A stretch of 64,000 bases of DNA, from positions 62,001 to 126,000 of the forward strand of contig JAFEBQ010000022.1 in assembly GCA_018242585.1 (NCBI GenBank), in the 5' to 3' direction. Position numbers and translations under genes: made by a program. The notes beneath the pieces were generated by a model. It did not search any database. It had not been told where the DNA came from and saw only the letters and a program-made list of their open reading frames with translations. This document shows, in pieces, positions 2,970 to 45,624 of this stretch (its first letter is position 1; the number at the start of each line of letters is the position of its first letter). This DNA comes from Planctomycetota bacterium (GTDB taxonomy: Bacteria; Planctomycetota; Planctomycetia; Pirellulales; PNKZ01).

Positions 2970-4427
2970 ATGTCGGTCGCAGGCGGATCGCTTCGTACGT
3001 TGGCGTTACTCGTTGTAATGAGTGCGGGCCTCCTCGATGGCGTCAACTTATTCGCCGCCCTGCCGACCAGGCCCGAGGAGTTGGGCACGTCGACATTAGC
3101 GTTGGACGATGCCAAGGATCCGCCGGTGGCCAACGACATCGAGGCGCTGCCAAGCAACGATGCGAAAGCCCCGTCACCGACGACAATGGGCGGCGCGTAC
3201 CGTGGCGGTTGCCCTTATGATTGCTGCGGGGAAAACCCGTGTGGCGGTCAAGGCTGCTGCGACAACGAGTGCGGCGACTGTGGCGACGGTTGCGATGTGC
3301 CGGCGATCGACCCCTATTGCCGGCTGTTCCGCCAGGACCGCGCGATTCGCCTGCGCGGCTGGCTCGACGCGGGCATCCTGGGCAACACCCAAAACCCGGG
3401 CAGCAGCTTCAACGGACCTTACAACTCGCAAGAAGTCGACAGCGGCCAGTTCAACCAGGCCTATTTGATCGCCGATCGGTTGATTACCAATCGCACCGGC
3501 CTGGGCGTGGGCGGACGCGTCGATCTGCTGTACGGCGGCGACTATAACGTGGCCCAGTCGTTCGGGCTGGAACGGAACAGAGACGGCAGCAATCGTTGGA
3601 ACAGCAACCAGTACTACGGTCTGGCGCTGCCGCAAGCCTATGGCGACATCGGCAACACCCGGCTGCAAGCGCGGCTGGGGCACTTCTATTCGATCGTGGG
3701 TTATGAAGGAGTACAGTCGGCGACCAACTTCTTCTATTCGCACGCTTACAGCTATCAATTCGCCGGCCCGTTCACCCACTGGGGCGGCTTGGGAACCTGG
3801 CAGCCCGGCAAGCGGCTGACCGTACAGGCTGGCCTGGTCAACGGTTGGAACAGCTTGGACAACGGCACGAACCAGCCGGCCTTCATGGGGGGCGTGAAGT
3901 ACAAGAACGACGACGCCGGCTGGTGGAGTTCGTTTGCGATCATCACCGGCAACGAACAGAACAACCCAGCCGCGCTGGCCACGGTGACCAACGCCGTAGC
4001 CAATCGGACGCGCTACAGCTTTTTGTTCAGCAAGCAGATCGGCTGCCGCACTGAATACGTGTTTCACCACTGGCTCGGTAGCCAGGCGACGGGCTATCCC
4101 GGCGGCGGGACGGCGCTGTGGTACGGGCTCGATCAATACTTGTACTATCGGATCAATCCCAAGTGGCGCGTGGGTGCTCGCACTGAATGGTTCCGCGACG
4201 AAGGGGGTACGCGCGTCGGGTTGACCGAGCCGTCGAACCCGAACGCGGCGCCGCTGCCGGGCACGTACATGTCGTGGACCGTTGGCGGCAATTGGACGCC
4301 AGCACGCAACGTGGTCATCCGGCCGGAACTACGCTGGGACACGTATGCCGGCTCGGCTCGGCCCTTCAACGACGGGCAACAGACGTACCAGTTGCTGCTA
4401 GGCGCTGACGCGATCGTGCAGTTCTAA
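2970..4427 (+). CDS. BBP2-like outer-membrane beta-barrel porin with Cys-rich N-terminal segment
   Basis: A 485-residue exported protein. The ATG at 2970 is chosen because a signal peptide starts there (hydrophobic LALLVVMSAGLLDG, then an Ala-containing cleavage region near residue 30). Residues 81-117 contain ten cysteines with CC and CGDC spacings. From about residue 118 the protein alternates polar and aromatic residues as in an outer-membrane barrel, with LRGWLDAGILGN, GHFYSIVGYEG and YSHAYSYQFAGPFTHWG, patterns I associate with the planctomycete BBP2/OmpL-like porins (PF07642). It ends in FGADAIVQF-like aromatic style (GADAIVQF), as barrel proteins usually do. The substrate is unknown. 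Similar Cys-rich modules occur in two other barrels of this window. Confidence 0.85.
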   Translation: MSVAGGSLRTLALLVVMSAGLLDGVNLFAALPTRPEELGTSTLALDDAKDPPVANDIEALPSNDAKAPSPTTMGGAYRGGCPYDCCGENPCGGQGCCDNECGDCGDGCDVPAIDPYCRLFRQDRAIRLRGWLDAGILGNTQNPGSSFNGPYNSQEVDSGQFNQAYLIADRLITNRTGLGVGGRVDLLYGGDYNVAQSFGLERNRDGSNRWNSNQYYGLALPQAYGDIGNTRLQARLGHFYSIVGYEGVQSATNFFYSHAYSYQFAGPFTHWGGLGTWQPGKRLTVQAGLVNGWNSLDNGTNQPAFMGGVKYKNDDAGWWSSFAIITGNEQNNPAALATVTNAVANRTRYSFLFSKQIGCRTEYVFHHWLGSQATGYPGGGTALWYGLDQYLYYRINPKWRVGARTEWFRDEGGTRVGLTEPSNPNAAPLPGTYMSWTVGGNWTPARNVVIRPELRWDTYAGSARPFNDGQQTYQLLLGADAIVQF

Positions 4428-44336: not shown

Positions 44337-44387
44337 GGGTAGCCGCGACAACTTGTTGTCGGGGTTCGTCGCAGACGAACAAGAGGG
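44337..44387 (+). repeat. REP element 1, upstream of the RAYT gene
   Basis: GGGTAGCCGCGACAACTTGT followed by TGTCGGGGTTCGTC and ending ACAAGAGGG. The GACAACTTGTTGTC palindrome forms the REP hairpin and the GAACAAGAGGG end matches the other two copies near the same transposase. Confidence 0.88.
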
Positions 44388-44445
44388 CTCGGGTAGGGAA
44401 CATACTGCTCGAACGGCCACCAACCGTATTCGTCAATCAATCGTC

Positions 44446-44958
44446 ATGCCGAAACGAGTAATCTACGACCAGGAATCACATGCCCAGTTCGTGACATTTT
44501 CTTGTTACCGACGGCGGCGATTGCTTGACGACGACCAGTCCAAAAGGTGCGTCCTCGGCGCGTTGAACGCCCAATTGCGTCGACTAATGGGCAAATGCGT
44601 CGGCTTTGTCGTCATGCCCGATCACGTCCACGCCATCCTCTGGTTCGCCAAACCGGGAGAATTGAGCGAAGCAATGAAGCAATGGAAGCGAACGAGCGGC
44701 ATTCGCATCAAAGAGTTGTTCGCAAAAACGCTAACTAACTACGGCCAAGTGACCGATCAGGCCGAGCCGACCTGGCAAGCGAAATACCACACGTTCAACC
44801 TCTATTCACGCCAGAAGATTGAAGAAAAGCTCAGCTACATGCACCTGAATCCCGTTCGAGCGGGATTGGTTGCCCAGGCGACCGATTGGCGTTGGAGTTC
44901 GGCACGCTGGTACGAGGAGCATCGTACTGTGGGCGTGCCGATTACTTGGCCGGAGTGA
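44446..44958 (+). CDS. REP-associated tyrosine transposase (RAYT, IS200/IS605-related)
   Basis: A 170-residue protein from ATG 44446 (MPKRVIYDQESHAQFVTFSCY). It carries the Y1 HUH motif HVH (His60, His62 in VMPDHVHAILWF) and the RAYT hallmark KLSYMHLNPVRAGLV with a Tyr at 131 as the likely catalytic residue, plus WRWSSARWYE. RAYTs cut and move REP/REPIN sequences as single-stranded DNA but usually stay as single chromosomal genes. Three cognate REP sequences surround it (44337, 45484, 45578). Its base composition is lower in GC than neighbouring genes. Confidence 0.93.
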   Translation: MPKRVIYDQESHAQFVTFSCYRRRRLLDDDQSKRCVLGALNAQLRRLMGKCVGFVVMPDHVHAILWFAKPGELSEAMKQWKRTSGIRIKELFAKTLTNYGQVTDQAEPTWQAKYHTFNLYSRQKIEEKLSYMHLNPVRAGLVAQATDWRWSSARWYEEHRTVGVPITWPE

Positions 44959-45029
44959 CATCAGGTCTGTCAGCTGTAGACACCGATAAAAGGGATCGGC
45001 GTTGATCGGGTAGTTTTCTTGGAGTCAAC

Positions 45030-45464
45030 ATGATTCGCATCATCGAGTGGCAGCACGCATTTACGATTCCGTTTGCCGACAATGTGCATGATGTCCTGAA
45101 AGCCTTCCTGCGCACTTCAATCCAAGGCGAATGGAGATTTGATGAGTCCGCGGAAATCGACAACTTCGTACTGCATCTGCGACGAGGTAAGTGGAAGAAG
45201 TCTTTGTTTGGTGGCCTCAGTCCCGCGTTCCCAACAAATGACCCCAAGGCTACGCCGATGACTTTGCGTATCACTTTGCGGCCGACCAGTAGTGAAGTAC
45301 TGATCCGGCTTTATCATTGGTTTCACTACAACTTTGTTGAACAATCACAACGCACCGCCGAGATGGAAAAGTGGTACGGTAATTACGTTAGTCGAGAGGT
45401 GGCGGAACTGGCGCGATACCTTCGGGATTTCTATCGCCTTCCAGAATTGCCAGAGATTGCCTAG
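45030..45464 (+). CDS. Hypothetical protein inside the RAYT/REP region
   Basis: 144 residues (MIRIIEWQHAFTIPFADNVHDVLKAF) preceded by GGAG seven bases before the ATG. It has no signal peptide or membrane segment. The C-terminal half is basic-aromatic and helical (LIRLYHWFHYNFVEQSQ, VAELARYLRDFYRLPEL). I do not recognise a family. It lies 71 bases after the transposase and directly before the REPIN, with codon use less GC-rich than the core genes, so it may have arrived with the region. Confidence 0.65.
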   Translation: MIRIIEWQHAFTIPFADNVHDVLKAFLRTSIQGEWRFDESAEIDNFVLHLRRGKWKKSLFGGLSPAFPTNDPKATPMTLRITLRPTSSEVLIRLYHWFHYNFVEQSQRTAEMEKWYGNYVSREVAELARYLRDFYRLPELPEIA

Positions 45465-45483
45465 AGCACGACGAAATTGCAGA

Positions 45484-45531
45484 GGGTAGCCCGGACAACT
45501 TGTTGTCCGGGTCGCGTCAGCGACAAGAGGG
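45484..45531 (+). repeat. REP element 2 (left arm of REPIN)
   Basis: GGGTAGCCCGGACAACTTGT then TGTCCGGGTCGCGTC and ending GACAAGAGGG. Direct orientation relative to REP 1; pairs with REP 3 as an inverted doublet. Confidence 0.88.
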
Positions 45532-45577
45532 CGAGTTCCTGTGAGGCGATTTCTTGGCGATTCGGACTTTCCACGAT

Positions 45578-45624
45578 CCCTCTTGTTGCTGCGCAACCCC
45601 GACAACTAGTTGTCGGGGCTACCC
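45578..45624 (-). repeat. REP element 3 (right arm of REPIN)
   Basis: CCCTCTTGTTGCTGCGCAAC followed by CCCGACAACTAGTTGTCGGG and CTACCC. It is the reverse complement type of REP 2 with a 46-base spacer, so 45484-45624 is a complete REPIN. Confidence 0.88.

Follow-up and report, generated by a model that had tools for sequence, protein, structure and literature searches.

A single-copy RAYT with two-hairpin REPs, a REPIN and a 144-aa orphan ORF in a planctomycete genome

A 1288-base unit in the window (the whole 64,000-nucleotide stretch of Planctomycetota DNA analyzed here) carries a gene of the REP-associated tyrosine transposase (RAYT, or TnpA-REP) family, three REPs and an additional open reading frame (ORF). 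The features are as follows:

44337-44387, + strand: REP1, a GTAG-tagged two-hairpin REP upstream of the RAYT (R1 covariance model, 54.3 bits; ssDNA fold, z -3.1)
44446-44958, + strand: RAYT/TnpA-REP gene, 170 aa (NF047646, Y1_Tnp, 4ER8 fold and catalytic residues)
45030-45464, + strand: 144-aa orphan ORF, a probable passenger (family and homologue searches; ORF-length shuffles)
45484-45531, + strand: REP2, left half of the REPIN (R1 covariance model, 74.4 bits)
45532-45577, no strand: REPIN spacer of 46 bases (read from the sequence)
45578-45624, - strand: REP3, inverted right half of the REPIN (R1 covariance model, 75.4 bits)

The earlier note had placed REP1 upstream of the RAYT, and REP2 and REP3 as an inverted pair with a 46-base spacer after the 144-aa ORF; the sequence bears out these positions base for base. 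Facing outward, REP1 and REP3 delimit the 1288-base unit like an oversized REPIN.

Against NCBIfam NF047646, the family of REP-associated tyrosine transposases, the RAYT scored 105.2 bits (cut-off 80), and against Pfam Y1_Tnp (PF01797) it scored 34.4 bits (cut-off 23). Its catalytic motifs are H60-V-H62, Tyr131 and Asn135; in an alignment of 18 RAYT homologues the HVH motif and Asn135 are invariant, and Tyr131 is nearly so. A search of the PDB with the single sequence (phmmer) returned no relatives, and with a profile of the three RAYT paralogues of this genome the best solved sequence was 4ER8, the E. coli TnpA-REP with a bound REP hairpin. The catalytic region aligns with 4ER8, and an AlphaFold (AF2) model built with the 18 homologues as input (pLDDT 88.7) gave 4ER8 as its top fold match (E 4e-10, TM 0.71), ahead of IS200/IS605 transposases. 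By motif comparison alone, DHVH, WQ and YMHLNP lie near RAYT subclass 2.7 ([ND]HVH, WQ and YI[LR][NQ]NP; PMC6006769), the Tyr motif being inexact.

Two sister RAYTs (52% identical) were found in the same genome at C19:30285 and C27:272154. In GTDB contigs, related RAYTs were found at 53 loci, most of them from Planctomycetota, and the closest relative, at locus L151, is 67-68% identical. The window genome also holds a decayed piece of a RAYT gene, interrupted by an in-frame TAG (at C8:67908, within G000:C8:66800-69300, locus L223); it adjoins a REPIN with a stem type of its own, CAGCCGC.

The three REPs, read directly, are GGGTAGCCGCGACAACTTGTTGTCGGGGTTCGTCGCAGACGAACAAGAGGG (REP1, +), GGGTAGCCCGGACAACTTGTTGTCCGGGTCGCGTCAGCGACAAGAGGG (REP2, +) and GGGTAGCCCCGACAACTAGTTGTCGGGGTTGCGCAGCAACAAGAGGG (REP3, -). 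They are 47-51 bases long when read 5′ to 3′ from the GTAG end, and the order in each is GGGTAGC, a main hairpin with a 2-base loop, a short second hairpin and ACAAGAGGG. The stem GACAAC-NN-GTTGTC and the terminal ACAAGAGGG are common to all three, as the earlier note had said of the stem and of a shared end. The second-hairpin stems in REP1-3 are TTCGTC/GACGAA, TCGC/GCGA and TTGC/GCAA. The complete REP2-REP3 REPIN folds as ssDNA at -46.6 kcal/mol (z -9.5). As in GTAG REPs, a GT[AG]G tag lies 0-2 bases 5′ of the hairpin and many copies are dispersed in the genome; the units depart from the usual single-hairpin form, which is not a strict criterion, by a covarying second hairpin and a conserved tail. 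The inverted pairs are REPINs, having two inverted REPs and a variable spacer and being over-represented.

The core palindrome SGACAACNNGTTGTCS occurred 49 times in the 5.57-Mb genome, compared with once for the reversed pattern, and GGGTNGC..CAAGAGG occurred 106 times, compared with twice for the control, so that these copies are not due to chance. With a covariance model derived from 22 REPs, at least 149 strong matches were obtained, a lower bound, with 150 of the 5758 candidates scored. The absence of other REPs of this type, which would have spoken against the earlier note, is therefore excluded. In the ∼70 REP stretches whose complete sequence was read, the GTAG ends pointed outward in 54 of the 56 neighbouring REP pairs lying within 200 bases. 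REPIN spacers fell into classes of ∼18-21 bases, ∼40-46 bases and, for GGTTGC stems, 44-71 bases; the window REP2/REP3 pair is an ordinary member of the middle class. The spacers of copies of this class diverge strongly from one another, and recent activity of the window RAYT is thus no more than possible.

A further, very homogeneous REPIN family is present in the same genome (contigs C1, C8, C9, C16 and C45; loci L215-L222), with a GTGG tag, GATGGC and CAGGTGC stems and the tail CAAGAAAC. At another locus (L114, G000:C12:255620-256030), a REP of a different family sits inside the spacer of a window-class REPIN.

Each RAYT of this genome is accompanied by REPs with their own main stem: GACAAC in the window, GGTTGC at C19:30285 and CGGTTGC at C27:272154. 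At the 34 RAYT loci with REPs on both sides, including the three of the window genome, the two flanking REPs agreed in their stems at 85.7%, against 46.5% when shuffled, and none of 10,000 shuffles reached 85.7%; the statistic ignores kinship between loci, which would raise the shuffled value. Flanking REPs thus match within a locus far better than between loci, which supports the reading that REPs and RAYT are cognate. The covariance model found REPs at most of the 53 related RAYT loci and, at E 1e-5, gave matches in 12 of 29 relatives, the window genome apart. At locus L178 (Pan216), tandem direct REP arrays with a period of ∼62 bases lie on both sides of the RAYT (2182-2476 and 3017-3188), in contrast to the inverted REP pairs seen elsewhere.

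The RAYT might have been domesticated for a host function, such as a part in replicating or repairing DNA at REP hairpins, and the REPs might then be relics. This reading would fit the presence of each RAYT type in one copy, the extragenic position of the REPs where seen, their diverged spacers and the description of TnpA-REP as a domesticated transposase in the literature (PMC8266576). We consider it unlikely, although worth weighing, because one genome holds several REP families, each adjoining its own RAYT, and because the decayed, stop-bearing RAYT fragment beside its own REPs fits selfish gain and decay.

The REPs of this group share one architecture: GGGTRGC is followed by a main stem that varies, then by a second hairpin that is short and covaries, and finally by CAAGAGG. 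In a MAFFT alignment of 22 REPs, 96.6% of the second-hairpin pairs were paired, and both sides had changed at two of the four pairs. Among 134 distinct REPs taken from related RAYT loci the values were 98.6% and four of four, in an alignment that was fitted to the model and hence leans towards it, so the 22-REP count is the cleaner one. At five loci (L155, L168, L171, L175 and L177) the REPs span 86-88 bases with a greatly lengthened main hairpin, and the second hairpin and a CAAGAGG-like tail are retained. The second hairpin and the CAAGAGG tail are probably part of the recognized or structural unit in this clade. We tentatively propose, at somewhat less than even confidence, that a planctomycete RAYT clade, extending into Desulfarculales and Verrucomicrobia, uses a previously undescribed two-hairpin REP, in which the main stem would give RAYT specificity, and the second hairpin and CAAGAGG would form a shared module required for REP binding or for pairing of the REPIN halves.

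The 144-aa ORF lies in the same direction as the RAYT, 71 bases downstream of it. When the segment was shuffled, ATG-initiated ORFs of 144 codons or more arose in 4 of 3000 cases, GGAG stands just upstream of the ATG of the ORF, and GC differs between its codon positions (54.5, 39.3 and 56.6%), so that the ORF is plausibly, and by these sequence features probably, a real gene. Homologues were absent from 57 relatives, 392 genomes of the phylum, GTDB contigs, viral contigs and plasmids, an orphan status that comes from sequence searches, in which fast evolution could hide relatives. Family searches assigned no protein family, and a single-sequence AF2 model (pLDDT 43) was useless. The matches obtained in 396 genomes of the order were weak (E 0.008-1) and short, and many of them contained stops.

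The earlier note had proposed that this gene might be cargo or a partner of the RAYT. A functional partner or regulator, co-mobilized in the REP-bounded unit, would fit the low GC of both the RAYT (54.8%) and the ORF (50.1%, lower than its surroundings as had been noted) relative to the whole window (63.3%), their shared direction and close spacing, and the position of REP1 and REP3 on either side of both. The outer neighbours of the unit encode an MBL-fold hydrolase and a flavin monooxygenase; in G002, the only relative seen with these two genes adjacent, 57 bases separate them and both RAYT and ORF are missing, so that the 1.3-kb unit is either an insertion in the window genome or a loss in G002. 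The ORF, however, was found beside a related RAYT at none of the 53 loci, no gene lies between RAYT and REP at the two paralogues of the same genome, and no homologue was detected anywhere searched. The proposal therefore found no support, and we regard a partner role as very improbable.

The first REP follows the end of the RAYT after 526 bases in the window, compared with 4-168 bases at the other 37 of 38 loci. No decayed REP turned up directly after the RAYT stop, the full model without filters giving at best 4.4 bits. At L151, a possible 98-aa membrane-like gene (776-1072, - strand) lies between the RAYT and the downstream REPIN; it is unrelated to the 144-aa ORF and occupies the same slot, so it may be more than chance that a gene lies at this position. 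For the 144-aa ORF the likeliest reading is nevertheless an unrelated gene, specific to the lineage, that is lodged between the RAYT and the downstream REP pair; as judged from sequence comparison, it is most likely dispensable for REP spread.

Taken together, these data make it very likely that the locus is a REPtron, in which a single-copy HUH/Y1 (IS200/IS605-like) RAYT is accompanied by the REPs it recognizes on both sides, with the 144-aa ORF as an unrelated passenger. The REPtron assignment is based on (i) the gene family (NF047646), the predicted 4ER8-like fold and the conserved catalytic residues; (ii) the dispersed REPs of the census and the GTAG-outward REPINs; and (iii) the paralogue-specific REPs and stem matching within loci. 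On these grounds the earlier identification of a RAYT with cognate REPs and a REPIN stands. An alternative in which the REPs end transcription or stabilize RNA, unconnected with the RAYT, is hardly credible: strong hairpins and a position between convergent genes would suit it, but terminators would not be expected to have the GTAG/GTGG tag, a conserved tail, pairing as REPINs or stems specific to each RAYT.

As a REPtron, the system is probably the planctomycete version of a familiar type of genome parasite, in which the RAYT, a small single-strand DNA transposase, spreads the short hairpin repeats that flank it. By analogy with TnpA-REP (PMC8266576, PMC6006769), the RAYT would bind the REP strand as single-stranded DNA, guided by GTAG/GTGG plus the main hairpin, and would cut at a dinucleotide near the REP and then rejoin; REPINs may be moved or copied by the RAYT during replication.

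The REPtrons of E. coli, Pseudomonas and Stenotrophomonas (PMC6006769, PMC8266576) likewise consist of an HUH/Y1 gene flanked by GTAG-tagged REPs, with one RAYT type per REP type and REPs dispersed as inverted pairs. The planctomycete system differs from them in the second short covarying hairpin and conserved CAAGAGG tail, in the frequent replacement of GTAG by GTGG and in the orphan gene inside the REP-bounded unit of the window. It resembles the REPINs of P. fluorescens SBW25 (PMC3116915) in having two inverse REPs around a less conserved spacer, foldable as one long hairpin, and several types, each with its own RAYT. In contrast to SBW25, the halves are ∼47 bases long with two hairpins each, and they often differ in stem and second hairpin, as left and right types (compare the Y and Z REPs of E. 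coli). The available part of PMC3733652 describes degenerate GTAG-1 units of P. putida and P. fluorescens to which unrelated stem-loops are attached, along with other double-palindrome TIRs, and names GTAG families of R. baltica. Those double palindromic repeats, as presented there, are a precedent for a REP with a second hairpin attached, and they too adjoin a RAYT and occur hundreds of times in the genome. Their GTAG unit, however, is degenerate and has an unrelated stem-loop as its second element, whereas the REPs described here combine an intact GTRG unit with a second hairpin that is short, covaries and is kept across a phylum. Our literature search on two-hairpin or planctomycete REPs yielded nothing beyond PMC3733652 (its available part) and PMC6006769. 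The REP architecture is a less usual one, possibly undescribed for this phylum.

RAYTs and REPINs form transposase systems that persist over long times, mostly in single copy, and are of interest for their benefit to the host and for the mode of REP spread. The 144-aa gene itself adds little to these questions. Planctomycete genomes hold several sister RAYTs together with separable REP modules, namely a variable stem and a retained second hairpin and tail, and such modules provide a natural test of which part of the REP confers specificity.
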